DNA from: Bacteroidales bacterium
GTDB taxonomy: Bacteria; Bacteroidota; Bacteroidia; Bacteroidales; WCHB1-69
NCBI GenBank assembly: GCA_017962275.1
Contig: JAGCVQ010000102.1
Location: forward strand, 1-33,747
Reading direction: 5' to 3'
Length of the DNA: 33,747 bases
In this document: piece by piece, positions 2,807 through 33,747 of the stretch
How positions within the stretch are numbered: the stretch's first letter is position 1
Layout: each line of letters opens with the position of its first letter
Notes under the pieces: model-generated
Told to the model about the DNA's origin: nothing
Databases searched by the model: none
The model's input: only the letters and a program-made list of their open reading frames with translations
Translations under genes and position numbers: made by a program

Positions 2807-2810
2807 GATG

Positions 2811-2840
2811 GTTTAGGGTTTAGGGTTTAGAGTTTATGGA
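2811..2840 (+). repeat. TTTAGGG-type array after a stop codon
   Basis: Four units of GGTTTAG/GGTTTAG/GGTTTAG/AGTTTAT type at 7-base spacing lie directly after the SurA-like stop codon, with the G-bearing strand on the coding strand. The unit resembles plant telomere repeats but is a short intergenic array here. Confidence 0.8.
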
Positions 2841-2879
2841 TAAGGGTTCAAGATTTAATAGATTAATAGAGAATAAGAT

Positions 2880-3866
2880 ATGGAGTTAGAGAACAAGACA
2901 GACATTGAAGCGATTGAATCGTTCGTTGAAAAATATAAGACCTTGCGCGAGGAGATCGCGAAGGTGATTGTGGGTCAGGACGATGTGGTGAAGAACGTGC
3001 TGATGGCGATGTTCAGCCGCAGCCACGCCCTGCTGATCGGCGTGCCGGGACTGGCCAAGACGTTGATGATCACCACGATAGCCAAAGCGGTGGATATGAG
3101 CTACAACCGTATCCAGTTCACCCCCGACCTGATGCCGTCCGACATCATGGGTGCGGAGATTCTGGACGACAACCGCAACTTCAAGTTCGTGAAGGGACCC
3201 ATCTTCGCGAACATCGTGCTGGCGGATGAGATCAACCGTACCCCTCCGAAAACGCAGTCCGCGCTGTTGGAGGCCATGCAGGAGCGTTCCGTCAGTATGA
3301 ACGGCACGACTTACGACCTGCCGAACCCGTTCTTCGTGCTGGCCACGCAGAACCCCATCGAACAGGAGGGTACCTACCCGCTGCCCGAAGCACAACAGGA
3401 CCGTTTCATGTTCAACATCATGCTGGATTATCCGAGCACGACCGAGGAGGTGGAGATTGTGAAACGCACGATCCACGGCGACATGGCGGAACCGAAACGC
3501 GTGCTGACAGTGGAGGAGATCATCTTCTACCAGAAACTGCTGCAGAAGGTGCCCGTCCCCGAGAACGTCTATCGCTATGCGGTGAACCTCTCCACGTTGA
3601 CCCGTCCGGGCACATCCGGCGCGCACGCTTGGGCCAACGACTACCTCTCCTGGGGTGCCGGTCCGCGTGCCTCGCAGTTCCTCATCATCGGTGCGCGCAC
3701 CCACGCCGTGCTGAACGGCAAGTACTCGCCCGACATCGAGGACGTCCGCGCCGTGGCCTATAACATCCTGCGTCACAGAATCATCAAGAACTACAAAGCG
3801 GAGGCCGAGGGCATCACTGTCGAGCAGATCATCGACAAGCTGCTGACCGCCGCCAACACCCAATAA
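2880..3866 (+). CDS. MoxR-family AAA+ ATPase
   Basis: A 328-residue cytoplasmic AAA+ protein of the MoxR class, a family thought to act as chaperones that help activate or assemble partner complexes. Walker A is GVPGLAKT (residues 54-61). Walker B is IVLADEIN (112-119), followed by the typical RTPPKTQSALLEAMQE. ATQNPIEQEGTYPLPEAQQDRF is the family sensor segment, and the C-terminal lid helical domain ends the protein. MoxR genes often precede DUF58 and von Willebrand-A proteins. Here none follows: only 3 bases separate its stop from a histidine kinase gene, so the two are probably co-transcribed. The partner therefore cannot be read from context. Confidence 0.93.
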   Translation: MELENKTDIEAIESFVEKYKTLREEIAKVIVGQDDVVKNVLMAMFSRSHALLIGVPGLAKTLMITTIAKAVDMSYNRIQFTPDLMPSDIMGAEILDDNRNFKFVKGPIFANIVLADEINRTPPKTQSALLEAMQERSVSMNGTTYDLPNPFFVLATQNPIEQEGTYPLPEAQQDRFMFNIMLDYPSTTEEVEIVKRTIHGDMAEPKRVLTVEEIIFYQKLLQKVPVPENVYRYAVNLSTLTRPGTSGAHAWANDYLSWGAGPRASQFLIIGARTHAVLNGKYSPDIEDVRAVAYNILRHRIIKNYKAEAEGITVEQIIDKLLTAANTQ

Positions 3867-3869
3867 ACG

Positions 3870-5385: not shown

Positions 5386-5415
5386 TGTAGAGACGCAAAA
5401 TTTTGCGTCTCTACA
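5386..5415. repeat. 30-nt perfect palindrome
   Basis: TGTAGAGACGCAAAA (5386-5400) is followed directly by its exact reverse complement (5401-5415). It lies between the convergent histidine kinase and lipoprotein genes. It could act as a bidirectional hairpin terminator or be a REP/MITE-like mobile palindrome. There is no loop, which is odd for a terminator. Confidence 0.85.
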
Positions 5416-5449
5416 AACCATAAACCCTAAACCATAAACCCTAAACCTT
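5416..5449 (-). repeat. TTTAGGG/TTTATGG array after the lipoprotein stop
   Basis: On the minus strand, which is the coding strand of the neighbouring lipoprotein, the array reads GGTTTAGGGTTTATGGTTTAG and onwards, starting a few bases after that gene's stop codon. It again carries the G-bearing strand in the coding direction. Confidence 0.8.
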
Positions 5450-6340
5450 TCAATGCCAATAAACATACGTATATATCAACGTACTGTCCATTTTGTTTGA
5501 TGCCGTATTCCAAGAAGTGAAATAGACTTTTGTGGGGTACTTGTTGTGATACTCATACGAGTAGGTGAAGGAGGTCGTGTTGGAAAAAATGTCATAGATG
5601 TCCGTCACCATGACGCTCGTCACGTTGTTTTTGCTGCAAAACAGGTATTGCGGACGGTCGTTGACCAGCGTACGCACCGGGAAAAGCGAAAGCAGTCCGT
5701 TCTTAGGATTGAGATTGTCATCATAAACGTAGGTGAAGGTCAGCCGCTGGATGCTGTCGGGACGCGTGAGTTGCATCTTCATATACTTGACATTGTCCCC
5801 TTCCCACACGTAATCGATTTCGGCGTCGCGGAAATTGTACGCCTCGACTTTCTCCCTCCGGTCCGCCTGCATCACCCGTGTCCATTCGCCGTTCCCCGGC
5901 ATGAGCATCGGCAGAAAGCCGCAACCATTCAAGTCTTTTGCCGGTTTTTTGAAGGAGATATGCGACAATTTGTTCTTGTCGAACGTCAAATCGTATGTCT
6001 CGACCAATTTGTCGCCCTTGTAGGTGTTGATCTTGGTCAGAAGTTTCCCGTCGTAAAGGAATTCCGTGTATTGGCCGTCCGTCTCGATACGGGAGAGGCG
6101 ATCCCCGTCATAGAGGTAGTGGTGAGAACTTTGGAGGTTCCCGCTCGGACGGAGATAATCGATTTTGGAGAGGGTATTCCCGGTCCAAGTCCACTCCTCC
6201 TGCAAATACCGCCCATCCTCCTCGGAATAAATCTTGTTAATCTTCATTTTGGGGTTATAGACTCCCAACTGTTCCTTCTGGCAAGCGGAAAAACTTAAGA
6301 TCAATAGGATTCCTATAAAAACAATTTCGATTTTTTTCAT
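5450..6340 (-). CDS. putative lipoprotein with YD-like repeats, paralogue A
   Basis: A 296-residue predicted lipoprotein of unknown function. MKKIEIVFIGILLILSFSAC is a lipoprotein signal peptide with Cys20 as the likely lipidation site. The mature part has repeated short strands such as WTWTGNTLSKIDYL, YLYDGDRLSRIETDG and FLYDGKLLTKINTY, a pattern like YD/RHS-type beta repeats in which each strand pair ends in a turn. The ATG at 6340 is preferred over a non-ATG extension to 6367 because it gives the clean signal peptide and lies 24 bases from a -7 box. It shares layout and motifs with the protein at 10904-11758 (FNPSKKIQKVYS versus YNPKMKINKIYS; WNWNGNMLTSID versus WTWTGNTLSKID). The two are paralogues. 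Confidence 0.75.
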   Translation of the reverse strand: MKKIEIVFIGILLILSFSACQKEQLGVYNPKMKINKIYSEEDGRYLQEEWTWTGNTLSKIDYLRPSGNLQSSHHYLYDGDRLSRIETDGQYTEFLYDGKLLTKINTYKGDKLVETYDLTFDKNKLSHISFKKPAKDLNGCGFLPMLMPGNGEWTRVMQADRREKVEAYNFRDAEIDYVWEGDNVKYMKMQLTRPDSIQRLTFTYVYDDNLNPKNGLLSLFPVRTLVNDRPQYLFCSKNNVTSVMVTDIYDIFSNTTSFTYSYEYHNKYPTKVYFTSWNTASNKMDSTLIYTYVYWH

Positions 6341-6372: not shown

Positions 6373-6401
6373 AGATTTTTTAGTTTTGGTCGAAAAAAAA
6401 T

Positions 6402-6446
6402 TATCCATTTTCCATTATCAATTATCCATTAAAATTTGTACCTTTG
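6402..6446 (+). promoter_or_regulatory. TTATCCATT repeats running into the -7 box of the C69 peptidase gene
   Basis: Repeated TTATCCATT/TTCCATTAT units (6402-6431) end 7 bases before TACCTTTG (6439-6446), a match to the TAnnTTTG element. The start codon is 43 bases further on. The repeats occupy the place where a -33 element would be expected. Confidence 0.6.
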
Positions 6447-8240: not shown

Positions 8241-8259
8241 TCACGGGGTGACGATATAC

Positions 8260-8291
8260 AAAAAGGCGTGCCGGAAACGGTACGCCTTTTT
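8260..8291 (+). terminator. intrinsic terminator after the C69 gene
   Basis: AAAAAGGCGTGCCG (8260-8273) pairs with CGGTACGCCTTTTT (8278-8291) around the tetraloop GAAA, giving 14 pairs with one G-T. With A and T runs on both sides it can work in both directions, and it lies between convergent genes. Confidence 0.9.
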
Positions 8292-8295
8292 GTTA

Positions 8296-8425
8296 GTTCA
8301 AAGTTCAAAGTTCCAAGTTCCATGTTCCAATTTCAAGGTTCAAAGTTTCAGGTTTCCCTTAACCCTATAACCCTATAACCATGTAACCATGTAACCCTAT
8401 AACCATGTAACCATGCAACCCACCC
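8296..8425. repeat. double array: GTTCAAA units then TAACC units between convergent genes
   Basis: From 8296 to about 8350 the plus strand carries GTTCAAAGTTCAAAG-type units, the G-bearing form following the plus-strand C69 gene. From 8359 to 8420 it carries TAACCATGTAACC/TAACCCTATAACC units. Read on the minus strand these give GGTTACATGGTTATAGG directly after the MurF-Alr stop codon. Each half therefore has the G-bearing strand on the coding strand of its own gene. Confidence 0.8.
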
Positions 8426-10882
8426 TCACTCTTGCACATACACCCGCGGCACGCGCTGCGAGATGCGGGTCATCAGTTCGTAGCTGATGAGGCCGGCGGC
8501 GTCTGCCATGTCCGAGACGGTGTTGCCCTCGCCATAGACGATGACCTCGTCGCCCTCGTGTACGCGCAGGCCAGTGATGTCGAGCATGCACATGTCCATG
8601 CAGACTTTGCCGATGACGGGCACTTTCTGTCCCTGTACGAGCACGGTGCCGCGACCGTTGCAGAGCTCGCGGGGGTAGCCGTCCGCATAGCCGATGGGGA
8701 TAATGGCCACCTGCGTGTCGCGTTGCAGCCGCCACGTGCGGTTGTAGCCAATCGTTTCGCCAGCGGGAATCTGCTTGATTTGGGTGATGACGGTCTTGAG
8801 GGTCACCACGTTATGCAATTTCATCGTCATCTCGGGAATCTCGGAGCAGCCATAAAGCTGGATGCCGAGACGGACCATGTCGAACTGCGCCTCCGGGAAA
8901 CGGACAATGCCCGCACTGTTGAGGATGTGGCGCAGGATTTTGTAGTCGAAAGCGGCGCACAGCACATCGGTCATGCGGCCGAAAAGGGCGATTTGCCGAC
9001 GGGTGAAGGCGTCCTCGGCAGGATCCTCAGCGGCGGCCAGATGCGAAAACACCGACGCGATGTGCAGTTTCGGGTTCCGCTTCACGATGTCGATGAGGCG
9101 CGGAAGGTCCTGCTTATCAAAGCCCAAGCGGTGCATGCCCGTATCGACTTTGATGTGGATGTTGAACGTCGGGATTTCGGGATGCCGCGCCAGCACCTCC
9201 TCCAACTGCTGGAGGTAGTAGAAGTTGAAGATTTCCGGTTCCAAACGGTGGTTCACCATCACCTCGAAACTGTGGGCCTCTGCCCCGAGCACGATGATCG
9301 GGGTGTCGATACGACGTTTGCGCAGACGAACGCCCTCGTCAGTGTAGGCAACAGCCAGATAATCAACCCCTTGGTCTATCAATGTATTGACTAATTCCAC
9401 ATCGCCCAGGCCATAGGAAGAGGCCTTCACCATCGCCACCATTTTGGTGTCGGGGCGCAGGCGGTTGCGGTGATAATTCAGATTATAGGCCAACGCAGGG
9501 AGGTTCACCTGCATAATGGTCAGATGGGTTTTATGTTGCAATGCGTTGACTACCTGCTCGAAATGAAAATTGCGGGCCCCCTTCACCAAGATAATCTCGT
9601 AAGAAATGGGAATATCCTGCAAATTCGAGAGCAAGTCGGCCGTATCGTGGAAAAAGAGCTGTTCCTCCAAATCGAAAACCCCTCTGTAGCCTTCAAAGCT
9701 GCTGCCGACGGCTATCAACCGGGAAATGTGGTGCCGTTTCAGCTGGGCATTCAGGCGACGGAAATCCTCTTCCGTCAGCTTTCCAACCTGCTCGAAATCG
9801 GAAATGACGAGCGTCTTTTTCGTCATCTGCGTCTGCGTGTCCAAGAAGTTCAACGCAGCGGATAACGAATTGATATCCAGACTGTACGTGTCGTTCACAA
9901 TCACCGAATGGTTGCGGCCCTCCATAATTTCCAGCCGCATGCTGATGTGCGTGAGCCGTCCCAACCGGCTGTTGATCTCCTCCGGCGTGAACCCGACATA
10001 GCGCAACGTGACCATCACATGGGTGACATTCTCCAACGAGGCGCTATCAATAAACGGAACCGTGTAATCGAAACCGTCAAGGGAAATAATCGTGCCGCCG
10101 GAGGGAGCCGCCTGCATCTGGACGGGATAGGTGCTGCGGGAATCGCCCCAGGAGATTTTCTTCAGACGGGCGTACTCCGGCAATTGCAACACCATGTTCA
10201 ACTCTTCGTTATCATTGTGATAGATAAGCACTTCCGCATTCTGGAAGAGTTTGAGCTTCTCGATAATCTTGCGGTTGTTGCTCGGGAAGAACTGGGCGTG
10301 CGCGGCCCCGATGTTGGTCAGGATGCCGATTGTGGGATCGATAATGTCCGCCAGCACCCGCATCTCGTTGGGACGGGAAATGCCTGCCTCGAACACGGCA
10401 ATGTCGTGCTGGTCAGACATCTGCCACACGGAAAGCGGCACCCCGAGACGGGAGTTGTAGCTGTCGGGGCTCTTCACCACCTTGAACTTGTCGTCAAGGA
10501 TGGAGGTAAGCCACTCTTTGACAATGGTTTTGCCGTTGCTGCCGGTGATGCCGATGACGGGATAACGGAACTGCTGGCGATGATGTTGCGCCAATCGCTG
10601 CAGGGCCGCCACCGAATCTTCCACGAAGAGGAAATTGGCGGAAAGACAGGTCGCGTAACTTTCCATCACTTTGGTGATGACGAAGTTGCGGACCCCCGCC
10701 TGGTACAGCGTCGGGATATAGAGATGACCGTCGTTCTTCTCCGTCTCAATAGCGAAGAAGAGGGTGCGGTCCGGCGCAGTCACCTTGCGGCTGTCGATAG
10801 CCAGCTCCGTGACAAAAGCCTCGGGAGTACCCAAAATAGTCTCCCGAGGCTCAATATATCGTATTAACTCAGAAAGTTGCAT
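8426..10882 (-). CDS. bifunctional MurF (UDP-MurNAc-tripeptide:D-Ala-D-Ala ligase) / alanine racemase
   Basis: An 818-residue fusion of two consecutive peptidoglycan precursor activities. Residues 1-450 are MurF: GITGSNGKT (111-119) is the ATP-binding loop, EAGISRPNEM and TNIGAAHAQ are Mur-ligase segments, and NDTYSLD replaces the usual DxYNANP motif. Residues from about 456 are a PLP-dependent alanine racemase: VAMVKASSYGLG with Lys486 as PLP lysine, IGYNRTW near the second catalytic region, GYADGYPRELCNGRG, and VCMDMCMLDIT. Alanine racemase supplies the D-Ala for the dipeptide that MurF then adds. This fusion is known in Bacteroidota. Only 21 bases separate it from the upstream lipoprotein B gene and no separate promoter is visible, so it is probably read from that gene's promoter. 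Confidence 0.95.
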   Translation of the reverse strand: MQLSELIRYIEPRETILGTPEAFVTELAIDSRKVTAPDRTLFFAIETEKNDGHLYIPTLYQAGVRNFVITKVMESYATCLSANFLFVEDSVAALQRLAQHHRQQFRYPVIGITGSNGKTIVKEWLTSILDDKFKVVKSPDSYNSRLGVPLSVWQMSDQHDIAVFEAGISRPNEMRVLADIIDPTIGILTNIGAAHAQFFPSNNRKIIEKLKLFQNAEVLIYHNDNEELNMVLQLPEYARLKKISWGDSRSTYPVQMQAAPSGGTIISLDGFDYTVPFIDSASLENVTHVMVTLRYVGFTPEEINSRLGRLTHISMRLEIMEGRNHSVIVNDTYSLDINSLSAALNFLDTQTQMTKKTLVISDFEQVGKLTEEDFRRLNAQLKRHHISRLIAVGSSFEGYRGVFDLEEQLFFHDTADLLSNLQDIPISYEIILVKGARNFHFEQVVNALQHKTHLTIMQVNLPALAYNLNYHRNRLRPDTKMVAMVKASSYGLGDVELVNTLIDQGVDYLAVAYTDEGVRLRKRRIDTPIIVLGAEAHSFEVMVNHRLEPEIFNFYYLQQLEEVLARHPEIPTFNIHIKVDTGMHRLGFDKQDLPRLIDIVKRNPKLHIASVFSHLAAAEDPAEDAFTRRQIALFGRMTDVLCAAFDYKILRHILNSAGIVRFPEAQFDMVRLGIQLYGCSEIPEMTMKLHNVVTLKTVITQIKQIPAGETIGYNRTWRLQRDTQVAIIPIGYADGYPRELCNGRGTVLVQGQKVPVIGKVCMDMCMLDITGLRVHEGDEVIVYGEGNTVSDMADAAGLISYELMTRISQRVPRVYVQE

Positions 10883-10903: not shown

Positions 10904-11758
10904 TTAGTACTCGTAAATGACCGTTTCAACATCAACTTCACCCCCTTCAACGGTCTTGCACGTCACTTTGGTCGGATAGTTACCCTCATATTCGTAAGTG
11001 AAATCAGCCCCACCAAGTGCCTGACCCATGTACAAATACTTCACGGACAGGGGATTGTTCTTATTCAGGAAGAGATTAACGGCAACATCACTACCCAGTG
11101 TCGCAAACAAACCGTACGTCGGGTTGTTCTTCTTGTCGAATGTCAATTCCACCGTCTCTGTCACAGGGACACCCCAAGAGGTAAAGTTGAGTTCCATGGA
11201 GGTAACATTGTCCCCCTTCCAGTTCAGTTTTATGACAATCTGATCATCGCCCTTGGCCTCTTTCGAGCATTTCTCTATAGCGTTTTGCACGGCAGCGCAG
11301 GCTTCGGGAATCACAAAACGCATCGGGTTCAGCAGATGCGCCTTATCAATCATAGAAAGCAAGTCATCCAGTCTCATTTCGACAATCTTGCCATTCTTGT
11401 GTACGAATTCCATGGTGCTGACCACGGTTCCCTCGTAGGAGCCTTCGATTTTTTGGATATACTTCCCGTCATAGATAAACTCAGAATGAGCACCGGCTTC
11501 ATCCATGCTGACCAGACGGTTTTTGCTGTCGTAGTTGAAGTAAACCGTATAAGGATATGTATCGTCAATACAGTCAATGGAAGTGAGCATGTTACCGTTC
11601 CAGTTCCACACTTCAGAAAGTTCCTTCACGCCATCGTCATTGACAGAATAAACTTTCTGGATTTTCTTGGAAGGGTTAAACACGCCTTCGGGGTCCTTAC
11701 ATGCTGAGAACAACGCGACTACCGCGATGCACAGGCAAAAAATGATGCTCTTTTTCAT
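10904..11758 (-). CDS. putative lipoprotein with YD-like repeats, paralogue B
   Basis: A 284-residue predicted lipoprotein. MKKSIIFCLCIAVVALFSAC gives a lipobox with Cys20. The mature part contains strand repeats VWNWNGNMLTSID, YFNYDSKNRLVSMDEAG and FIYDGKYIQKIEGSYEG, matching those of the protein at 5450-6340, and ends FTYEYEGNYPTKVTCKTVEGG..VIYEY. The ATG at 11758 is chosen over a TTG two codons upstream. Function is unknown. YD-like beta repeats suggest an extended surface or periplasmic beta structure. It lies directly upstream of murF-alr on the same strand with a 21-base gap, so the two are probably co-expressed. A -7 box lies 26 bases upstream of its start. Confidence 0.78.
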   Translation of the reverse strand: MKKSIIFCLCIAVVALFSACKDPEGVFNPSKKIQKVYSVNDDGVKELSEVWNWNGNMLTSIDCIDDTYPYTVYFNYDSKNRLVSMDEAGAHSEFIYDGKYIQKIEGSYEGTVVSTMEFVHKNGKIVEMRLDDLLSMIDKAHLLNPMRFVIPEACAAVQNAIEKCSKEAKGDDQIVIKLNWKGDNVTSMELNFTSWGVPVTETVELTFDKKNNPTYGLFATLGSDVAVNLFLNKNNPLSVKYLYMGQALGGADFTYEYEGNYPTKVTCKTVEGGEVDVETVIYEY

Positions 11759-11791: not shown

Positions 11792-11806
11792 CAAAATATT
11801 GGATTA

Positions 11807-11886
11807 CACGGTTAGGTTACATGGTTAGACGGTTAGGGGTTAACCGTGTAACCCTCTAACCGTGTAACCGTGTAACCATGTAACCT
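11807..11886. repeat. inverted pair of TAACC arrays (long imperfect hairpin)
   Basis: The left part (11807-11840) on the plus strand is of GGTTAGGTTACATGG type. The right part (about 11838-11886) is GGTTAACCGTGTAACC..TAACCATGTAACC, its reverse complement in kind. They could pair as one imperfect hairpin. On the minus (coding) strand the array is G-bearing just after the beta-helix stop codon and C-bearing just before the lipoprotein B promoter. Confidence 0.8.
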
Positions 11887-11888: not shown

Positions 11889-13343
11889 TCACCTCTTCTC
11901 CTCCGGAATCGGATAATACTCGTACGCGCCGATGTCGGGGATGCCGTTGCGGGGGCGGCCGAGGATGTCGGTGGTGATGCCGAGACCGGTCATGCCTGCA
12001 TCCACGGCGGGAGAGGTCTCCTCGATGTTGTAGTTCTGTCCGTAAGTGGCGATGAACTTGGGATTTGCGTTGAAACAGTTGATGTAATGGTCGTTGTTGA
12101 TGCTATCCTTCCGCACGATGCAGTTGTGCAAGGTGTAGGTCAGCTCCGCACCCTCTTTGGTGCCCGTTCCGAATTCATTCTGCAACGAGCCATAGAGAAT
12201 GCAGTTATTAAAGGTCGCGTGCGCATCCCCGAGGTAAGAGACGTTAACCGCCTCTCCGCCAACAACTTCTGTCTTGACAAAAAAGTTGGTCAACGCCACG
12301 GAAGGCGTGTTGCGGGAGGACTGCGAAAAGTAGTTGGCCACCGTGACGTGGTTGAGGGTGAAGTCTCCTACCCACAACGCGAGACTGTATTTGCCGTTGT
12401 TGCTCACCTGGCAGTTGTTCATCTCCACGTTAGCACCTTCCGCCCGAATTCCCATCACCTGGTTGTTGTGAATCACGGAATTATTGATGATGTTCCGGTT
12501 GCCGGTGTATTCCTCAAGTGCTTCAAAATGAATGCCGTACGAGGAGTTGGAGATGATAGCATTCTCGATGATGTTGTCCTCGCTGCCCTCGTTGATCCAC
12601 AGGGCATCCCATTGGGCGTAATCGTTGGCGAAAAAGGGCTCCAGACGGTCGCCGGTGATGGTCACGGGTTCCTCTAACGTGCCGTCGATGTGGATATTAC
12701 CGTAACGATAGACCCAGATGCCGCCGCCGCTGTGGACATACACTTTCGTGCCGGGATCGATCGTAAGCTTGCCGAGCGAATCCACCACCGCCCATCCGTA
12801 GATGACCCACGGCTTGTCGTTGGTCCAGTGCACATGTTCGTGCTCATGCGCGATGATCCGGTACCGCATCGAAGCTGGACCGTCGTTGGGGACGATGAAG
12901 TGCGCATCCTGCCCGAAGGCCACTAACTGCACCGACTGCGTGCGGCTCTTTTGGTAGAACATCACCGAATCGGTTACCAGATAGGGCGTGTTCTGGTTCG
13001 TGGGGTCGATGTTGACCTTCACGAAGACGAAAATGCTGTCGTGCGCGGGAATCTCCACATTGCGGAATTCCGTGCCCGCCACGCCATCCACATTGATGCT
13101 GTAGTTGGACTGCTTGCCGCCCGCCAACGCGATATCGACTTCCACGGGCGACCCCGTCGTGTTCCTCACCGTGAACGACTGCGTGCTCGACGTGATGGTG
13201 GTGAACACCGTGTCGAACAGCACCGTGTCCGCCGAAAATTCCAGTTCCACCCCATCGGCGTTGTTGTTCCGGTGACAGGAGGGCATGGTGAAGGACAATG
13301 CTATCGCCAAAGAGATATATATGATTCGGATGGTATGTTTCAT
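11889..13343 (-). CDS. right-handed beta-helix repeat lipoprotein
   Basis: A 484-residue predicted lipoprotein. The N terminus is MKHTIRIIYISLAIALSFTMPSC, with Cys23 as lipidation site. Residues about 30-150 look like an Ig-like domain (FDTVFTTITSSTQSFTVRNTTGSPVEVDI). Residues about 185-460 carry beta-helix coils with repeated N-rich turns: GTLEEPVTITGDR, DNIIENAIISNSSYGIHFEA, RNIINNSVIHNNQVMGIRAEG and ANVEMNNCQVSNNGKYSLAL. Such folds often bind or cleave polysaccharides, but catalytic residues cannot be assigned here. The C terminus (RNGIPDIGAYEYYPIP) is typical of this family in Bacteroidota. It follows the toxin gene by only 18 bases on the same strand, so it may be read from the toxin-antitoxin promoter. 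Confidence 0.85.
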   Translation of the reverse strand: MKHTIRIIYISLAIALSFTMPSCHRNNNADGVELEFSADTVLFDTVFTTITSSTQSFTVRNTTGSPVEVDIALAGGKQSNYSINVDGVAGTEFRNVEIPAHDSIFVFVKVNIDPTNQNTPYLVTDSVMFYQKSRTQSVQLVAFGQDAHFIVPNDGPASMRYRIIAHEHEHVHWTNDKPWVIYGWAVVDSLGKLTIDPGTKVYVHSGGGIWVYRYGNIHIDGTLEEPVTITGDRLEPFFANDYAQWDALWINEGSEDNIIENAIISNSSYGIHFEALEEYTGNRNIINNSVIHNNQVMGIRAEGANVEMNNCQVSNNGKYSLALWVGDFTLNHVTVANYFSQSSRNTPSVALTNFFVKTEVVGGEAVNVSYLGDAHATFNNCILYGSLQNEFGTGTKEGAELTYTLHNCIVRKDSINNDHYINCFNANPKFIATYGQNYNIEETSPAVDAGMTGLGITTDILGRPRNGIPDIGAYEYYPIPEEKR

Positions 13344-13977: not shown

Positions 13978-14013
13978 AACAATTTTCCAATTATTACCTA
14001 TTCTTCATTCAAA

Positions 14014-14038
14014 ACCATAAACCCTAAACCCTAAACTC
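14014..14038 (-). repeat. TTTAGGG array beginning within the truA stop region
   Basis: On the minus strand the last truA codons and stop read GGA GTT TAG, and the array continues GGTTTAGGGTTTATGG. The stop codon TAG is part of the first repeat unit. Confidence 0.8.
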
Positions 14039-14821: not shown

Positions 14822-14880
14822 TTAACCCTTAACCATGTAACCGTGTAACCTTTGAACTTTGAACCTTGAACTTTGAACCA
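14822..14880 (+). repeat. TAACC plus GAACTTT arrays in the truA-lysS divergent promoter region
   Basis: TTAACCCTTAACCATGTAACCG-type units (14822-14850) are followed by TTTGAACTTTGAACC units (14851-14879). The C-bearing form lies on the coding strand of lysS, directly before its -7 box. Confidence 0.8.
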
Positions 14881-14897
14881 AAAAAATCGTATCTTTG
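14865..14897 (+). promoter_or_regulatory. lysS promoter embedded in repeat DNA
   Basis: TATCTTTG (14890-14897) matches TAnnTTTG. CTTG at 14865-14868, 21 bases upstream and inside the GAACTTT array, is the only plausible -33 element. The sequence AACCAAAAAAAT just before the -7 box recurs before the -7 box at 23245. Confidence 0.6.
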
Positions 14898-14923
14898 CCG
14901 CTCATTTTGAAAAGAGAATTACG

Positions 14924-22152: not shown

Positions 22153-22180
22153 GAGGCAAAAGGCAAGAGGCAAAAGGCAA
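22153..22180 (+). repeat. 14-bp tandem repeat GAGGCAAAAGGCAA, two copies
   Basis: Perfect 14-mers at 22153-22166 and 22167-22180, starting 5 bases after the DUF4954 stop codon, with the G-bearing strand on the coding strand. Confidence 0.85.
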
Positions 22181-22224
22181 GAGTATAATAAAGTGACGAA
22201 CAGCAATTATATATTAAAAAGATA

Positions 22225-22304
22225 TTCCTTAAGCAGTCCCAGAGGGACAAGTGCTCGAAGAGCTTAATAACCCCACATGAGCGACGAAGGAGCGCAATGT
22301 GGGG
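22225..22304 (+). repeat. three-hairpin structured element, copy 2 (plus orientation)
   Basis: TTCCTTAAGCA, then hairpin 1 GTCCC-AGA-GGGAC (22236-22248), hairpin 2 GCTC-GAA-GAGC (22253-22263), then hairpin 3 CCCCACAT..ATGTGGGG (22271-22304) with loop GAGCGACGAAGGAGCGCA. Compared with the copy at 19765-19846, spacing between the hairpins is the same, stem 2 and the top of stem 3 differ by paired changes, and the 18-base loop differs at one base. Confidence 0.8.
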
Positions 22305-22343
22305 CAGGCAGTAACAAGAAACAACAACAAAATCGATAAAGTC

Positions 22344-23129: not shown

Positions 23130-23137
23130 CGACACCT

Positions 23138-23190
23138 GTAGGGCTGCCGCAATGCTTTGTAGGGCTGCCGCAATGCGACAGCCCTACAAC
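23138..23190 (+). repeat. 19-bp direct repeat with a hairpin
   Basis: TGTAGGGCTGCCGCAATGC occurs at 23138-23156 and 23159-23177. The second copy leads into a hairpin: TTGTAGGGCTG (23158-23168) pairs with CAGCCCTACAA (23180-23190). It lies 9 bases after the nagB stop codon and may end transcription, though there is no T run. Confidence 0.8.
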
Positions 23191-23199
23191 ATCACCTAT

Positions 23200-23236
23200 A
23201 ACCGCGTAACCGTGTAACCGTATAACCGTGTAACCA
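23200..23236 (+). repeat. TAACCGTG array before the lytic transglycosylase promoter
   Basis: Four TAACC units at 9-base spacing (TAACCGCG, TAACCGTG, TAACCGTA, TAACCGTG) end in TAACC followed by a run of seven A. The C-bearing strand is the coding strand of the downstream gene. Confidence 0.85.
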
Positions 23237-26630: not shown

Positions 26631-29093
26631 ATGAATAGAAAATATACCTTTTCGATTTTTTCTATACTATTGATTTTCAGCGTTTTTGCATACGCCCAAA
26701 CCGAAAATCAATACAGCCGGTTCGATCCGAAGGCATTGAAGGAAAATGCCAAATATGTGCGGAATTTCGCGCCGAACAACTACGACGAGAAAATTCTGTA
26801 CCAGTGTTTCACCGACATGGTGGATATGGCGCGGGCCGAATTCCGCTACGTGCCGAAACTGAAACACGACATCAGTTTGGACTCCACCGCGCAGTTCCAA
26901 GCTGATTTCCAGGCTTCCAAGGATGAGAAGACGCTGGACAACAACGCCCCGTACAAGACCACCTTCTTCCGTCTGCGCAAGTACGGTTTGGCGGGCAACG
27001 GCGAGGAATTGGTGGCCAAAGCGAAAGCCTACATGGGCGAGGCGGAGTACACCTACTACGACCTCTGTCTCTCGTTGGTGCAGTCCATCCTCAAAAACGT
27101 GAAGACCGCCGACGTGATGCTCAACGAGAAGTACACCTACATGGGCTTCGGCTTCAACACCGACGTGGCCATGAAGAGCATGTACACCTCCCTCGTGCTG
27201 GGCAACGACCGCACCTTCAACCTCTACAAAGCGGGCTACAACGAGAAAGATGTCCCCTATACCAAAGGGCAAGCCAGTCTGAAGGGTTATGACGAAAAGG
27301 TCTGCAAGAAGTGCGCCTCTGAACCCGGAATGGAAATCCTCTCCGAGTGCGTCTCCGTGAACAAAAACGGGGAAATCTACTTCACGACCGATAACTACAA
27401 GGAAATCAAGCGTCTCATCGGCAAGGAGGGTGACGCCATCGTCATCGACATCGTGCAAGAGGGGCAATACGAATGCGACAACCATCAGGTGGATTACGAC
27501 CTCTACCACCGCGGCACCGTCACCAAACCCATCACCTTCGAGAAGCTGATGGCCGCCAACGAGAACGCCAACCTCAAATCCGGCAAGCTGATTGCCAAAA
27601 TCGCGGATCTGCCGGCAGAAGTCAACGACAACAAAGGGCTGGATCTCATCGTGTTGGTGATCAAGGAGGGGAACCACGTTTGCCGCTCCGTCATCGCCAA
27701 GCGCATCGAGAGCAAGGGCGCCGACTACACCGAGAAAATCAACTTCGTGAAGGACGAGACCGGCATCAAGAGCACTGGCGAATGGACGATCTCCCCTGAA
27801 GACGGCACCGTGAGCCTCTCGTTCCCCTACGAGGCCAAGAAAACCGACTATACCGCCGCCGGCTTCAACCTCGACAAAACCGATCCCAACCTGCCGCCGT
27901 ACAAGGTCAACAGCGTGGAGCTGATCTCCCACATCTCCCCCGACTACTACCAGGATCCCGCCTACAAAGCCATCCAGGAAAAGCGCGCCGCCGCCGTCAA
28001 GAAAGACCTGCAACGCTACTTCCCCGGCGTGGACATCAAGTTGGTGTACGACTACTGCTGGGACGAGTTCAAAGAGAAAATCACCCAACATGAGGAATAT
28101 TACGACCTGAGCTTCAAGACGTTGGAGGAGGCCGCCAAGGAGTTGCGTCTCTACAACCGCTATGCCGCCAAAGTGCTGGATACCAACTATCTGGCCCCGC
28201 TGCGCACGATGGAACTCCGTCAGAGCGTGACCTATTATGCCGACTCCCCCACCGGTGAGGAGGCGTTCGCCCTCTGGAAATTCAACAACGCCGTCAAGAA
28301 CCCGAAACAACTCGGTTTCGCCATGTCGGTGGAAGACTACATCCTCAAGCAGGTGGAGAACGGCAAATTCTCGTCCTCCTCTTTGGAGAAGATGGAGATT
28401 CCGTTCAAGAAAGAGTACCAGACGCTGCTGAACAACAAGCTGTACGCCCAATACTACAAGAGTTCGAAGCTGACGCCCGCGATGGCTGAGCAGATGACGA
28501 AGATCTACAACCTCAACACCGCCAACCAGTTGCTGCTGTACAACACGACCGTGGCCGATGTGCTGGCTGCCAAAATCAACACCATGGCCGACATCACCAA
28601 GACACAGGCCGCCATCGACAAGCTCTACACCATTCCCGCCATCCCGAAAGACCGCGTGAACAGCCTCAACTTGGAGTACCAGTTCAAGATTATCAACTAC
28701 TTGGACACGCTGCCCGCCACCCCGGAAACCACCGCGATGGTTACAAGCACCTACCAGAAAATCAAAGAGATACGTAACGAAAAGATGGACAGCTGGAAGA
28801 ACGCCTTCAAGCTCGCCTCCTACTTCAACAAACGTTACGACTACATGTATTCGCTCTCGCTGATGACGCCGTTCCTGGATGACCCGACCATCTCCGAAGA
28901 CTTCATCTTCTCCTACGTGACGCTCGCCGCGCACCGCGAGGAGACCTACCTCAGCGGACTCTTCACCAAGGCTGTGGGCTTAGCCGCCGAGAAAAACCCG
29001 ACCCGTCTCTGCGGTCTTGTCGATAAACTGCCGACCTGCATTTTGGAGAATCAGGAGGCGAAGAAGATTATCTGCAAGGCGTGCAATCGCTAA
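26631..29093 (+). CDS. large secreted protein of unknown function with a possible CAP-like N-terminal domain
   Basis: An 820-residue exported protein (signal peptide 1-22, ending AYAQ). I do not recognise the family. Residues about 54-206 resemble a CAP/SCP domain: a helix with HDISLDSTAQFQADFQASKDEKT, a central YGLAGNGEELVAKAKA where CAP proteins have their GEN motif, and a final strand pair MGFGFNTDVAMKSMYTSLVLGND. Residues about 230-440 look beta-rich, with a Cys pair in KVCKKCAS. Residues about 450-530 include KRAAAVKKDLQRYFPGVDIKLVYD, like an OmpA-type or oxidoreductase-like helix-strand unit. The last 300 residues are helical, with three or more Cys at the end (RLCGLVDKLPTCILENQEAKKIICKACNR). 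No adjacent gene hints at its role. Confidence 0.7.
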   Translation: MNRKYTFSIFSILLIFSVFAYAQTENQYSRFDPKALKENAKYVRNFAPNNYDEKILYQCFTDMVDMARAEFRYVPKLKHDISLDSTAQFQADFQASKDEKTLDNNAPYKTTFFRLRKYGLAGNGEELVAKAKAYMGEAEYTYYDLCLSLVQSILKNVKTADVMLNEKYTYMGFGFNTDVAMKSMYTSLVLGNDRTFNLYKAGYNEKDVPYTKGQASLKGYDEKVCKKCASEPGMEILSECVSVNKNGEIYFTTDNYKEIKRLIGKEGDAIVIDIVQEGQYECDNHQVDYDLYHRGTVTKPITFEKLMAANENANLKSGKLIAKIADLPAEVNDNKGLDLIVLVIKEGNHVCRSVIAKRIESKGADYTEKINFVKDETGIKSTGEWTISPEDGTVSLSFPYEAKKTDYTAAGFNLDKTDPNLPPYKVNSVELISHISPDYYQDPAYKAIQEKRAAAVKKDLQRYFPGVDIKLVYDYCWDEFKEKITQHEEYYDLSFKTLEEAAKELRLYNRYAAKVLDTNYLAPLRTMELRQSVTYYADSPTGEEAFALWKFNNAVKNPKQLGFAMSVEDYILKQVENGKFSSSSLEKMEIPFKKEYQTLLNNKLYAQYYKSSKLTPAMAEQMTKIYNLNTANQLLLYNTTVADVLAAKINTMADITKTQAAIDKLYTIPAIPKDRVNSLNLEYQFKIINYLDTLPATPETTAMVTSTYQKIKEIRNEKMDSWKNAFKLASYFNKRYDYMYSLSLMTPFLDDPTISEDFIFSYVTLAAHREETYLSGLFTKAVGLAAEKNPTRLCGLVDKLPTCILENQEAKKIICKACNR

Positions 29094-29096
29094 CTT

Positions 29097-29140
29097 TGGC
29101 TTTTGGCTTTTAAACTTTGGCTTTTGGCCATTGGCTTTTT
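29097..29140 (+). repeat. TTTGGC array after a stop codon
   Basis: Units of CTTTGGCTTTTGGCTTTT and TTTGGCCATTGGCTTTT begin within 5 bases of the CAP-like stop codon. The reverse complement of this family occurs at 29547-29612, on the other side of the four-helix-bundle gene. Confidence 0.8.
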
Positions 29141-29169: not shown

Positions 29170-29568
29170 ATGAGAAACTTCAGGCAATATGAAGTATGGA
29201 CGAAAGCTGTTGATATAGCTGATATTGTCTATGCTCTATGTGACGGATTTCCAAAGTACGAGTTGTTTGCCTTAGGCGATCAGTTGCGTCGTGCAGCTGT
29301 TTCCATAGCATCGAATATTGCAGAAGGAGCATCAAGGACATCTACGGCAGAGTTTGCACATTACCTTGAAGTTGCAATAGGTTCAGCGTTTGAAGTTGAG
29401 ACACAACTTCTTATAGCAAGAAGACGTAATTACATTACGGAAGAGGTCTATAACACCACTGTTATGGAGCTCCAATCTTTGGAGAGACAACTGAATACTT
29501 TTATCTCAAGAATAAGAAATGAACAACCCACAACTAAAAGTTCAAAGCCAACAGCCAACAGCCGATAG
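29170..29568 (+). CDS. four-helix-bundle protein (S23/intervening-sequence type)
   Basis: A 132-residue, mostly helical protein. It matches the family first seen inside 23S rRNA intervening sequences: YEVWTKAVDIADIVYALCDGFPKYELFALGDQLRRAAVSIASNIAEGASRTSTAEFAHYLEVAIGSAFEVETQLLIARRRNYI. Members form a four-helix bundle, often pentameric; their role is unclear. The gene is clearly more AT-rich than its neighbours. The last 16 or so residues (NEQPTTKSSKPTANSR) are encoded by the GCCAACA repeat array, and the end overlaps the start of the RluD-like gene by 50 bases. The combination suggests a small mobile or inserted gene within a repeat-bearing gap. Confidence 0.88.
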   Translation: MRNFRQYEVWTKAVDIADIVYALCDGFPKYELFALGDQLRRAAVSIASNIAEGASRTSTAEFAHYLEVAIGSAFEVETQLLIARRRNYITEEVYNTTVMELQSLERQLNTFISRIRNEQPTTKSSKPTANSR

Positions 29569-30610
29569 CCAGGAGCCAATGGCCAACGGCCAACAGCCAA
29601 CAGCCAACGACGAGTTATACGAACATTTTCGGTTCGAGGTGACGGCGGGGACGGAGATGCTGCGCATCGACAAGTACCTGTTCAACCTGATCGCCAACAC
29701 GTCGCGCAACAAAGTGCAGCAGGCGGCGAAGGCGGACTGTATCTTGGTGAACGGCAGCCCCGTGAAGCAGAACTACAAGGTGCGGCCCGGCGACACCATC
29801 TCCGTGCTGATGCCCAATCCGCCGAACGACACCGAAATCCTGCCCGAGAACATCCCGCTGAACATCGTCTATGAAGATAACGACCTGCTGATTGTCAACA
29901 AAGAGGCGGGCATGGTGGTGCATCCGGCTTACGGCAACTACACCGGCACGCTGGTCAATGCGCTCTACTACTATCTTCGCGACCAAAAATTGGAGGACGG
30001 CTCCCCCATGAAACCGCTGTTGGTACACCGCATTGACAAGAACACCTCCGGGCTGTTGGCGGTGACCAAGAACGAGTTAGCGCAGATGCGGTTGGCCAAG
30101 ACCTTCTTCGACCACGACCTGGAACGCAAATACTGGGCGTTGGTGTGGGGCGACATGGAAGGGGATTCCGGCACCATTGTGGGCAACGTGGGGCGCAACC
30201 CCAAAGACCGCATGGTGATGACGGTGTTCCCCGAGGGCAGCGACCAGGGCAAGCACGCCGTCACACATTGGCGTGTGGTGGAGCGTTTTGGCTACGTAAC
30301 CCTCATCGAATGCCAGTTGGAGACCGGCCGCACGCATCAGATCCGCGTCCACCTGCAGCACATCGGACATCCGCTCTTCAACGACGAGGCCTACGGCGGC
30401 AACCGCATCCTCAAGGGCACCACGTTCACGAAATACCAGCAGTTCATCCGCAACTGCTTCTCGCTGATGCCGCGGCAGGCCCTGCACGCCAAATCGTTGG
30501 GCTTCAAGCACCCCATTACCGGCAAGGCGATTCTGTTCGAATCGGAGCTGCCGGAAGACTTTGCCGCCGTGGTGGAGAAATGGAGAGGATATTCTTCAGT
30601 TGAGAGTTGA
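29519..30610 (+). CDS. RluA/RluD-family 23S rRNA pseudouridine synthase
   Basis: A 363-residue enzyme of the RluA family. An S4 RNA-binding domain spans about 45-100 (MLRIDKYLFNLIANTSRNKVQQAAKADCILVNG..YKVRPGDTI). The catalytic domain carries LLVHRIDKNTSGLLAVTKN with Asp173, followed by ETGRTHQIRVHLQHIGHPLFND. It is closest to RluD, which modifies helix 69 of 23S rRNA. The start is uncertain: residues 1-31 (rich in Gln, Pro, Asn, Thr) come from the GCCAACA repeat array, and an ATG at 29579 is an alternative; neither start has a strong ribosome-binding site. The C-terminal VES and the stop codon are also repeat-encoded (GTTGAGAGTTGA). Confidence 0.92.
   Translation: MNNPQLKVQSQQPTADSQEPMANGQQPTANDELYEHFRFEVTAGTEMLRIDKYLFNLIANTSRNKVQQAAKADCILVNGSPVKQNYKVRPGDTISVLMPNPPNDTEILPENIPLNIVYEDNDLLIVNKEAGMVVHPAYGNYTGTLVNALYYYLRDQKLEDGSPMKPLLVHRIDKNTSGLLAVTKNELAQMRLAKTFFDHDLERKYWALVWGDMEGDSGTIVGNVGRNPKDRMVMTVFPEGSDQGKHAVTHWRVVERFGYVTLIECQLETGRTHQIRVHLQHIGHPLFNDEAYGGNRILKGTTFTKYQQFIRNCFSLMPRQALHAKSLGFKHPITGKAILFESELPEDFAAVVEKWRGYSSVES
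29547..29612 (+). repeat. GCCAACA array, translated in two frames
   Basis: GCCAACA/GCCAACG/GCCAAT units cover 29547-29612. They encode the tail of the four-helix-bundle protein (to 29568) and the N-terminal segment of the RluD-like protein in another frame. This is the C-bearing form of the TTTGGC family at 29097-29140. Confidence 0.8.
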
Positions 30611-30638
30611 GAGTGTAGAGTTGAGAGTTGAGAGTTAC
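30596..30638 (+). repeat. GTTGAGA array at the end of the RluD-like gene
   Basis: GTTGAGAGTTGAGAGTGTAGAGTTGAGAG-type units begin inside the last codons of the gene (GTT GAG AGT TGA) and run up to the terminator. The G-bearing strand is the coding strand. Confidence 0.8.
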
Positions 30639-32027: not shown

Positions 32028-32357
32028 CTACGATTGGAAGATTTTTTCCATCAATTGCCACTTTTCGTCACTTCGGGCATCGGCGGCGCAACCTTGGAAC
32101 TGGGAAACGTAGGCTTCCCATTCGGCTTGTCGCGGCAATTTGGCAAGCCGTGCCATATCGCGCTCCCAGTCGAAATCATCGACGGTGTCGCAAATCATGA
32201 ACAGCTGGCGGCCATGACGGTAAATCTGCATGTCGAGGATGCCCACTTCGTGCTGTCCCTCAATAATCTCGGGCCACACATGTGCATGCACCTCCACATA
32301 TTTTGCGATGAGCTCGGGATCATCCCGCAGCTCCAATGTTTGACAGTACCTTTTCAT
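32028..32357 (-). CDS. L-rhamnose mutarotase family protein (RhaM/DUF718)
   Basis: A 109-residue protein of the RhaM fold. Members interconvert alpha and beta anomers of L-rhamnose; some relatives act on L-fucose. MKRYCQTLELRDDPELIAKYVEVHAHVWPE holds the Tyr20 and His24 positions that match the active-site Tyr/His of RhaM, and the WQLMEKIF end is typical. Length fits (104-110). No rhamnose catabolic genes are in view. Instead, a sugar kinase/nucleotidyltransferase fusion lies upstream on the same strand, separated by a large hairpin, which points to sugar activation or salvage rather than simple catabolism. The real sugar is not known. Confidence 0.88.
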   Translation of the reverse strand: MKRYCQTLELRDDPELIAKYVEVHAHVWPEIIEGQHEVGILDMQIYRHGRQLFMICDTVDDFDWERDMARLAKLPRQAEWEAYVSQFQGCAADARSDEKWQLMEKIFQS

Positions 32358-32495
32358 TAGTTTAGAGTTTAGGGTTTAGAGTTTAGGGGTGAGGGTTGAG
32401 GGTTGAGGGTTGAGAGTGTAAAGTTGAGAGTTAGAAAACACTCTACACTCAACACTCTAAACTCTCAACTCTCAACTCTCAACTGTCAACTTTCA
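32358..32495. repeat. large inverted repeat of GTTTAGA/GTTGAGG arrays with a G-quadruplex motif
   Basis: The plus strand runs GTTTAGAGTTTAGGG..GAGGGTTGAGGGTTGAGAG (about 32360-32432) and then the complementary kind ACTCTACACTCAACACTC..CTCTCAACTCTCAAC (about 32439-32490). An imperfect stem of about 40 pairs is possible. Four G runs at 32386-32389, 32393-32395, 32400-32402 and 32407-32409 with 3-4 base loops form a classic quadruplex pattern on the plus strand. Confidence 0.8.
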
Positions 32496-33668
32496 TCACA
32501 TTCCGCTCCGGCGGATATGCAGTGCAATTGCCTCGGGGTGTTCTGAACAGAATTTTTCTGCATCGGTAACCACACAGGCGAGGTAGCCGCCGCCACCCGC
32601 ACCGGGCATCTTCCACGCCAAAACATCCTCAAGAGGAGAATATCGGTCGATGTAATCCTGCACACAACCTTGAATCATCGCAGGGAACATGGCCGTCTGT
32701 GCTTCGAAGGAGGCCTTGTAAGCAGCGGCAAATGCAGGCAAGTCAGTACGGAGAACGGCCTCCCAACAGTTGTCGGCAGCAGTGGCGAGGGCCTTAACCT
32801 TCTCTTCCGTGATGTCCTGTCCTTCCACCACACTGCAGCCCGGCTTCCGGGGTTCCATCGGAATCATCACCAAGTGGTTTTCCAGCCAGGTAAGCACTCG
32901 CTCGTCCTCGCAGGTCTCGATGCGCTCGGGCCAGAAATGGTTATCGTAAAAATGTCTGCATAGTCCCGGCACACAAATTCCTATCGCATCCTGCGCCCCG
33001 CTGATGATGCCGTCCTCACGTTCGGGATGGTTCTCAAAGCAGAAAACCAGCCGCGCTAAAGTTTCAGGATCCATATTGGGCAACTGATAAGGCCAGATAC
33101 GCTTGATGACATTGCGCGTGGAGGTACTCAGCCCGCAACGCTCCCGAATCTCGAAGGTGGGTTCCAGACTGATGGTGAGTGCCCAGCCGGGGGCATACTG
33201 GCTCACGTAAGGCTGGTCAATCCACGTACCGGCGAGATCCAACCGCGTGGGCAGCAGACACTCGGTCTTCTTCAGTTCCGTACTGCTGCGGGCAGCAAGA
33301 CCGTCATGGGGAATACGGTCGAGCACGATATACTCCATTCCCCGCTCCTCACAGACCTTGCGTTTCGCATCGGAACCGCCATCGCTGTTCACCACAAGGA
33401 TATCCGGCTTCAGAAAATCGAGCGTAGGCAGGAAATCGAGAATGCCGTCGCCCTGATTGATGAAAGCGTCCTTCACATAACGGATGCTCTTCACCATGAA
33501 AAGCCGCTCCTGCTCGCTGTAGATGGTCTTATGGTGCTTGTAATGCAGAATGGTGTTGTCGGAGCCGATGCCCACATACAAGTCACCATACTGCGCCGCC
33601 TGCCGGAAAAACTCCACGTGACCGCTGTGCAGCAGGTCATAGCAGCCACTGACAAAAACTTTCTTCAT
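32496..33668 (-). CDS. cytidylyltransferase-type nucleotidyltransferase fused to a GHMP kinase
   Basis: A 390-residue two-domain protein. Residues 1-135 are a nucleotidyltransferase of the TagD/HldE-C type: VFVSGCYDLLHSGH (4-17) holds the HxGH nucleotide-binding motif and ARSSTELKK (126-134) the second signature. Residues 139-390 are a compact GHMP sugar kinase: LPTRLDLAGTWID (139-151), CGLSTST (178-184) as ATP loop, GAQDAIG (214-220), and PGAGGGG (345-351). The expected action is phosphorylation of a sugar at C1 and transfer of a nucleotide to it. The order (nucleotidyltransferase then kinase) is that of the fucose-salvage enzyme Fkp, but this protein is under half its size and its first domain belongs to another family. 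Substrate unknown. Confidence 0.87.
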   Translation of the reverse strand: MKKVFVSGCYDLLHSGHVEFFRQAAQYGDLYVGIGSDNTILHYKHHKTIYSEQERLFMVKSIRYVKDAFINQGDGILDFLPTLDFLKPDILVVNSDGGSDAKRKVCEERGMEYIVLDRIPHDGLAARSSTELKKTECLLPTRLDLAGTWIDQPYVSQYAPGWALTISLEPTFEIRERCGLSTSTRNVIKRIWPYQLPNMDPETLARLVFCFENHPEREDGIISGAQDAIGICVPGLCRHFYDNHFWPERIETCEDERVLTWLENHLVMIPMEPRKPGCSVVEGQDITEEKVKALATAADNCWEAVLRTDLPAFAAAYKASFEAQTAMFPAMIQGCVQDYIDRYSPLEDVLAWKMPGAGGGGYLACVVTDAEKFCSEHPEAIALHIRRSGM

Positions 33669-33684
33669 ACGATTACTTCTTATA

Positions 33685-33747
33685 AAGTTTAGAGTTGAGA
33701 GTTTAGAGTTGAGAGTTAAACTCTAAACCCTAAACTCTAAACCCTAA
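33685..33747. repeat. inverted GTTTAGAG/CTCTAAAC array at the right edge
   Basis: GTTTAGAGTT (33701-33710) pairs with AACTCTAAAC (33719-33728), flanked by more units of both kinds, and the array runs off the window. On the coding strand of the gene to its left it is C-bearing just before the start. Confidence 0.8.

Follow-up and report, generated by a model that had tools for sequence, protein, structure and literature searches.

The intergenic regions of contig JAGCVQ010000102.1, from the Bacteroidales bacterium assembly GCA_017962275.1, carry short tandem arrays with units of about seven nucleotides, and their placement raises the question of what sets the orientation of such an array relative to the adjoining genes. 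The whole contig (33,747 nucleotides) was analysed and is called the window here; it is contig 60 of a 2.77-Mb genome in 105 contigs, whose nearest named relatives are mostly Bacteroidales metagenome-assembled genomes from ruminant guts. These relatives, the protein families encoded in the window and its TANNTTTG promoter-like sites all place it in Bacteroidales. In the initial annotation of the window it was proposed that arrays of 6-9 base units carry, without exception, their G-bearing strand on the coding strand just after a stop codon and their C-bearing strand there just before a start or promoter, that between tandem genes the two forms make inverted repeats, and that the rule is tied to the direction of transcription or translation. 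We analysed a sample of 901,512 bases of this genome (G000; 61 stretches, the window included), in which a simple script based on hexamers, rather than a standard caller, identified 714 genes. Arrays were detected with Tandem Repeats Finder, and those with periods of 6-9 or 14 were counted. Counts for four genomes refer to G000 and samples of the congeneric genomes G013, G012 and G026.

The arrays of the window were recovered with Tandem Repeats Finder where they had been placed, and their sequences, edges and base counts were read. Arrays were far above chance, since 275 intergenic arrays were observed in G000 compared with 27 after shuffling each gap. At least ten unit families were seen, with 7, 14 and 8 as the commonest periods, and the arrays were mainly intergenic rather than equally common in genes (275/309 in G000, 121/131 in G013, 38/43 in G012 and 60/70 in G026). 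Scored by nearest edge, the rule as first worded was obeyed by 183 of 244 arrays in G000, a set from which 5 arrays were excluded for having as many G as C and 26 for lacking one or both flanks. Strong as the polarity is, the absence of exceptions did not survive this count: arrays nearest a stop were G 114 : C 46 and those nearest a start C 69 : G 15. In G013 the counts nearest a stop were G 60 : C 16 and those nearest a start C 34 : G 3; G012 had G 18 : C 5 at stops and C 11 : G 0 at starts. Misfits at stops were commoner away from the edge, with G 100 : C 14 within 5 nucleotides and G 14 : C 32 farther away in G000. When all arrays within 8 nucleotides of a stop were taken, whatever the other neighbour, the counts were G 104 : C 18 in G000, 53:4 in G013, 16:1 in G012 and 15:7 in G026.

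A rule of G after a stop and C before a start is the same as a G-strand running outward from a gene edge, a form that is symmetric under reverse complement. Among 324 edge-assigned arrays of the four genomes, an assignment that leaves out arrays in contact with both edges or distant from both, the G-strand ran outward in 290 and inward in 28, with 6 ties. Stop and start edges were alike, the G-strand pointing outward from both. As had been claimed for the different units of the window, the polarity held across unit families, and it was repeated in all three congeneric genomes. An array meets the functional edge, a stop codon or the stretch immediately before a promoter, with the 5' end of its G-richer strand; its other end lies free. 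Where the 5' end faced a stop, it lay within 8 nucleotides in 183 of 224 arrays, compared with 35.7 expected under uniform placement, and where the 3' end faced a stop it did so in 29 of 220, compared with 38.4 expected (14/17 and 7/31, respectively, in G026). The stop codon was entirely within the array in 77 of the 183 abutting arrays.

The proposed tie to transcription or translation direction failed in the tandem gaps, where the two orientations were equal in the four genomes: 172 arrays were coding-G and 168 coding-C (95:91, 52:38, 12:12 and, off balance, 13:27 in G000, G013, G012 and G026). Within 8 nucleotides of the stop, however, were 144 of the 172 coding-G arrays and 24 of the 168 coding-C arrays. 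These counts show that array orientation is locked by which end touches the gene edge, not by the transcription strand. In convergent gaps 45 arrays pointed outward and 7 inward, and in small gaps where the array touched both sides the orientations were 14:14. Promoters were scored with one strict motif, TANNTTTG, and we take the promoter-like sites of this form in the window to be the Bacteroidetes -7 box. The motif before the next gene did not shift orientation, being found with 40/172 coding-G and 41/168 coding-C arrays. Among start-facing arrays, 38 of 121 in G000 had the motif within 75 nucleotides, 24 of these 38 ending 7-12 nucleotides before it; in G013 the figure was 16 of 48, 9 of these at 5-10 nucleotides. 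Random intergenic windows contained the motif in 70/474 cases in G000 and 29/196 in G013.

Neighbourhoods of lysS were compared more widely. In 70 other loci (L104-L173, mostly Bacteroidota) there were 29 usable arrays, G 11 : C 4 at stops and C 10 : G 4 at starts; the 9 arrays of ten near-genus loci (L094-L103) were G 2 : C 2 and C 4 : G 1, respectively. From these small numbers, other Bacteroidota appear to lean towards the same polarity.

Of four composition measures, the excess of G over C predicted the outward strand best (165:11 with 1 tie at stops, 125:17 with 5 ties at starts), ahead of purine and keto skew. A base-composition background was rejected, the GC skew of array-free intergenic DNA being just -0.09 to +0.07. 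Arrays without any GG or CC were still polar (110:7, 2 ties). The outward strand was also rich in stop triplets, in 127/177 stop-edge compared with 62/147 start-edge arrays. With stop triplets on both strands, the polarity was 51:2 at stop edges and 24:3 at start edges; with none on either strand, stop edges still showed 19:2. Stop triplets are therefore a second effect, and stop-edge polarity is independent of them.

Turnover of the arrays was followed at the gap between a SurA-like gene and a MoxR-like AAA gene in 30 congeneric genomes, 16 with an array (score 24 or more) and 14 without a detected array. The array-less gaps measured 13-19 nucleotides in ten genomes and 33-87 in four. Thirteen arrays were coding-G, all beginning between -3 and +6 nucleotides of the stop, and three were coding-C, beginning 6, 19 and 64 nucleotides after it. 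At this gap the array goes with a change of the stop codon from TAA to TAG or TGA: the SurA stop was TAA in 13 and TAG in 1 of the array-less genomes, compared with 2 TAA and 14 TAG or TGA in the array-bearing ones, while the end of the protein was unchanged or one residue later. Units differed between most sister species, related units being shared by G030, G006 and G040, so that units turn over between species with the polarity kept. Genome-wide the shift away from TAA was weaker, 45/122 genes with an abutting array compared with 288/550 without in G000 (p 0.003) and 21/58 compared with 114/204 in G013 (p 0.01).

Gaps conserved between G000 and G026 were also compared. In 15 of these an array was present in one genome only, and the array-bearing gap was longer by a median of 53 nucleotides for a median array of 39, indicating a gain of DNA and not its consumption; in two of these gaps the difference was just 4 nucleotides, which would fit replacement. 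The median length difference of 41 conserved gaps without arrays was 17 nucleotides. Rearrangement scars were rejected as an origin over the short range that this comparison covers, the flanking genes of 15/15 array gaps and 43/44 array-less gaps being still adjacent in G026 where both orthologues were sampled. In none of 22 other loci did the flanks of lysS (about 1.5 kb) contain the TruA-like gene that adjoins it in the window, which suggests that gene order near lysS changes often.

Most array gaps held a single array (140/188 in G000). Where arrays followed each other, the consecutive pairs in G000 were 36 G-then-C (GC), 2 CG, 10 CC and 8 GG; GC and CG pairs numbered 15 and 0 in G013 and 4 and 0 in G012. 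The claim that the two forms make inverted repeats was right as to this order. It did not hold for the units, which by 6-mer overlap were unlike in 22 of the 36 GC pairs (13/15 in G013, 1/4 in G012), so that hairpin formation can explain some pairs but not the order. An element that is an inverted repeat by construction was rejected for these 22 cases. A common unit was found in the remaining 14 of 36, compared with a mean of 3.7 after shuffling (maximum 10).

As a cause of the outward polarity, we tentatively propose outward copying: synthesis of array DNA would start at a gene edge and run away from the gene, with selection limiting its extent; this is possible but far from secure. The G-rich strand would be the growing 3' strand, and the copying might proceed by template switching or by slippage, with priming at the edge. 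Since stable R-loops are formed by G-rich RNA on a C-rich template, arrays may form more readily where untranslated transcription runs out of the gene, beyond the stop codon or away from the promoter in the divergent direction. Copies entering functional sequence would then be removed by purifying selection, which would leave the array flush with the edge, and a second, weaker selection would favour units with stop triplets at stop edges. A function of the array itself would not be needed. A more far-reaching form of the proposal, in which the outward G-strand is a cross-phylum law caused by directional synthesis from gene edges (R-loop-coupled template switching or telomere-like end healing) that writes both the array and the stop codon, with quadruplexes and regulation as side issues, seems rather unlikely.

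Several observations weigh against outward copying. No gradient of unit purity, as a measure of age, was found along the arrays, so the direction of growth was not seen directly. Start-facing C arrays were not enriched in gaps with the promoter motif (41/168, compared with 40/172 for G arrays and 132/426 for array-less tandem gaps), which contradicts the prediction of the divergent-transcription step; Rho-type insulation before promoters was rejected on the same failed enrichment. Divergent gaps were less strict (38 outward, 12 inward), arrays near a transfer RNA (tRNA) gene pointed outward in just 1 of 4 cases, and arrays without stop triplets on either strand were only weakly polar at start edges (14:8). 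The tandem strand balance of G026 was off, and arrays directly after terminators were of both kinds (G 9 : C 15; in the terminator counts, arrays at bidirectional terminators are viewed from either strand, and one hairpin or more is probably a promoter). Strands would likewise be 50:50 under a selective filter that depended on position and acted with equal strength at the two edges, and the gene starts and stops used throughout came from our own simple caller.

Other explanations place the asymmetry in the transcript, in the loss of DNA or in the insertion of elements. Under selection on RNA, arrays would arise both ways; a C-rich, G-poor strand directly behind a stop would recruit Rho or make the message less stable, a G-rich strand before a promoter would be harmful, and the outward-G arrays would survive. 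G minus C being the best predictor suits this, as do the counts directly upstream of terminator-like hairpins (G 19 : C 5, from the same terminator set) and the SurA-MoxR gap, where the two genes lie on the same strand less than 20 nucleotides apart in 10 of the 14 array-less genomes and G arrays prevail. The tandem totals are nevertheless balanced independently of a downstream promoter motif, convergent gaps keep the polarity even though termination would be harmless there, and a second, unrelated reason would be needed at start edges; the strand balance and the symmetry of the start edges thus speak against transcript selection, which we consider rather unlikely. Directional erosion by replication slippage, with arrays arising anywhere and the DNA 5' of the G-strand being lost until a functional edge is reached, would yield the pinning, the outward polarity, the GC order and the 50:50 strands together. 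It is hard to reconcile with the lengthening of most of the 15 array gaps, and unpinned arrays were not clearly younger, with an identity of 0.834 (n=41) compared with 0.868 (n=183) for pinned ones (p 0.06); we regard erosion as unlikely. Insertion of a mobile or REP-like element (repetitive extragenic palindromic, REP) with inverted array ends would account for the excess of GC over CG pairs and for the shared units, and other interspersed elements are likewise found at stops, yet the unlike arms, the predominance of single-array gaps and the change of units between sister species at one gap make it quite improbable.

Two further candidates concern what the array sequence itself might do. If only a strand with stops in every frame were tolerated after a gene, the stop-rich outward strand at stop edges and the stop codons lying wholly within arrays would follow; stop-edge polarity is equal with stop triplets on both strands or on neither, however, and polarity exists at start edges as well. 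Stop-codon supply was accordingly rejected as sole cause. It is an added effect, and as the cause it is very improbable. Regulation by G-quadruplexes, as weighed for arrays of Xanthomonas and Nostoc under the same placement rule (PMC4692102), could apply to units such as TTTAGGG, which could form quadruplexes. Among the 324 edge-assigned arrays, though, a four-tract G3 motif was present in only 8 and a G2 motif in 88 more, and with 228 lacking either, and arrays without GG or CC obeying equally, quadruplexes were rejected as a general cause and their regulatory role here is extremely improbable.

The arrays of the window are listed in Table 1. Filtering for a score of 40 and a period of 6-9 or 14 leaves 17 rows; the sites at 11807 and 14830 are visible but outside this filter.

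Table 1. Tandem arrays of the window and their neighbourhoods (ORF, open reading frame)
Position	Array	Strand (G-strand)	Context
2810..2848	GGTTTAG	+	3 nt past TAG stop of SurA-like gene (1472-2806); MoxR-like AAA gene follows at 2880
5415..5447	GGTTTAT/GGTTTAG	-	2 nt from stop edge of minus-strand gene 5450-6340
6400..6431	GGATAAT-type (ATTATCC on +)	-	just upstream of TGTACCTTTG promoter-like site before + gene ending 8240
8295..8354	GTTCAAA/GTTCCAA	+	directly behind intrinsic terminator of + gene; slightly C-rich
8360..8420	CATGGTTA octamer	-	5 nt from stop of MurF-Alr fusion gene (8426-10834, -)
11804..11836	GGTTAC/GGTTAG	+	before start of - gene 10904-11758, G outward; outside period/score filter
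11841..11885	CACGGTTA octamer	-	3 nt from stop of - gene 11889-13286
14012..14036	AGGGTTT	-	overlaps stop of TruA-like gene (14031-14783, -)
14823..14879	TAACC octamers, then CTTTGAA heptamers (C on +)	-	abut AAAAAAATCGTATCTTTG promoter-like element of lysS (called start 14924)
22153..22183	AGGCAAA	+	4 nt past stop of DUF4954 gene (19941-22148)
23199..23235	TAACCGTG (C on +)	-	abuts AAAAAAATGTACCTTTG promoter-like element
29095..29139	TTTGGCT	+	1 nt past stop of gene 26670-29093
29546..29608	GTTGGCT (AGCCAAC on +)	-	overlaps called start of pseudouridine synthase gene by 30 nt
30598..30636	GTTGAGA	+	contains TGA stop of pseudouridine synthase gene (29579-30610)
32359..32432	GTTTAGA/GTTGAGA	+	outward from start of - ORF 32028-32357
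32454..32495	GTTGAGA/GTTTAGA	-	abuts stop of - gene 32496-33668
33686..33717	GTTTAGA/GTTGAGA	+	outward from start of gene 32496-33668
33717..33747	GGGTTTA	-	runs into contig end; only left neighbour known, G-inward to that neighbour

Three of the cited sites are weak examples. The array at 8296, described as G-bearing after a stop, has 2 more C than G over 8295-8347 and starts 54 nucleotides past the stop, behind the terminator. By nearest edge the arrays at 6400-6431 (59 nucleotides from the left-hand start, 114 from the right-hand start) and 23199-23235 (69 from a stop, 84 from the called start) break the rule, and they fit it only if assigned to the farther, promoter side. The array at 33717-33747, G-inward to its single known neighbour, was not among the sites listed in the initial annotation. 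The observation made in the initial annotation was thus partly confirmed, and its interpretation partly supported.

At 8241-8294 the order is stop, intrinsic terminator and then array. Arrays directly behind the T-run of a terminator were seen at several genes, and at other genes the array lay between the stop and the terminator. The terminator-like hairpins beside arrays were mostly sequences separate from the arrays, and the position of some arrays upstream of such hairpins suggests that these may be transcribed. The promoter-like core of lysS, T(T/C)GTATCTTTGCCGC (14873-14924), was conserved in close relatives. Ten nucleotides before the TAACCGTG array, positions 23137-23188 hold nearly two direct copies of a 21-nucleotide unit, TGTAGGGCTGCCGCAATGCTT, followed by a partial inverted copy. 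The array at the contig end has parallels elsewhere in the assembly: an array lay within the first 60 nucleotides of 7/57 sampled contig starts, compared with 111/4000 random windows, an excess indicating that arrays tend to break assemblies.

Other repeats shared the gaps with the arrays. A 28-nucleotide perfect palindrome, GTAGAGACGCAAAATTTTGCGTCTCTAC, at 5387-5414, directly before the array at 5415..5447, is a dispersed element whose TAG is the stop codon of 10/714, 5/282, 4/202 and 10/320 genes in G000, G013, G012 and G026, respectively; insertion at TA would be consistent with this supply of TAG stops to some genes. Longer, hairpin-rich interspersed elements (..TTCCTTGAGCAGTCCCGAAGGGAC..GCGCGAAGCGC..TAACCCCACA..TGTGGGG) were located at 19670-19845 and 22225-22305 and were found behind arrays in many gaps. 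Their TAACCCCACA part was mostly sense in tandem gaps (31 compared with 3 in G000, 7:1 in G012, 2:2 in G013), a polarity tied to transcription, unlike that of the arrays; the copy at 19670-19845 is antisense. A search of the window against Rfam returned two tRNAs and nothing else.

REP elements and miniature inverted-repeat transposable elements (MITEs) are short intergenic palindromic repeats, some of them near stop codons. Their units are palindromic, whereas the arrays described here are direct tandem repeats with unlike arms in many gaps; a palindromic unit with matching ends was not found, 22 of 36 pairs having unlike arms and most gaps one array. Long simple sequence repeats with units of 5-11 nucleotides (Mrazek and colleagues 2007, as cited in PMC4679880 and PMC4692102) are commonest as heptamers in most of the genomes covered there, and polymerase slippage has been proposed for them; no orientation rule is mentioned where they are cited in those two papers. 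Arrays of TAACTGA heptamers have been described from Beggiatoaceae, cyanobacteria and some Bacteroidetes (PMC4679880). According to the passages cited here, they are mostly "forward" to start codons in one Beggiatoaceae genome, and in Flexibacter litoralis 12 of 14 sets are forward before a start and one is reversed right after a stop, whereas Microcystis lacks this bias, its 22 mapped intergenic sets comprising 6 that run forward to a start, 8 in reverse and 8 that lie between stops; two sets occur in Paludibacter. These arrays resemble ours in being intergenic heptamers with TAAC toward the start codon. They differ in having a single unit with equal G and C, and the same passages contain no stop-edge rule. 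The TAACTGA consensus unit was present in no window array detected by Tandem Repeats Finder.

The closest match contradicts the statement in the initial annotation that no described system has this rule. Arrays of GGGAATC in Xanthomonas and of GGGGA(C/T)T in Nostoc, both quadruplex-forming (PMC4692102; PLoS One 2015 e0144275), are, in the parts of that report used here, mostly intergenic heptamers with the G-rich strand nearer the 5' neighbour whatever the gene orientation, thus on the non-coding strand upstream of genes and on the coding strand downstream, often overlapping the stop. Between aligned genes the xanthomonad arrays were near-equal on the two strands (30 and 35 per cent in one genome, 35 and 35 in the other), and inverted pairs numbered 70 and 75 in the two xanthomonads; the Nostoc arrays were unbalanced, with 18 per cent on the same strand and 34 on the opposite one, and were seldom paired. 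The authors weighed roles for quadruplexes and, in those parts, identified no function. Intergenic units of about 7 nucleotides and a G-strand toward the 5' neighbour were found here too, and quadruplex tracts were generally not. Each genome of that study had one quadruplex-forming unit type, as far as those parts describe, whereas here there are at least ten families, most without quadruplex motifs, and the two arms of a gap are often unlike. No report on arrays of this genus was among the literature matches listed.

A rule published for two quadruplex-forming heptamers (PMC4692102) holds for many unlike units, most of them lacking quadruplex motifs, in a third phylum. This finding removes quadruplexes as a general explanation and makes it unlikely that selection acts on the transcript strand. 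At one conserved pair of genes, arrays accompany stop-codon exchange in many species. The findings point to a directional DNA process that is testable in culturable Bacteroidetes; if general, it would have a bearing on the origin of bacterial intergenic DNA and on the commonness of heptamers. As set out in the cited parts of the 2015 report, the polarity rule was already on record for other bacteria; it is broader here, and outward copying is only proposed as its cause. To this known kind of polarity the present arrays add the breadth of units, the near-zero distance to the gene edge, the exchange of stop codons, and a separation of the rule from quadruplexes and stop content.

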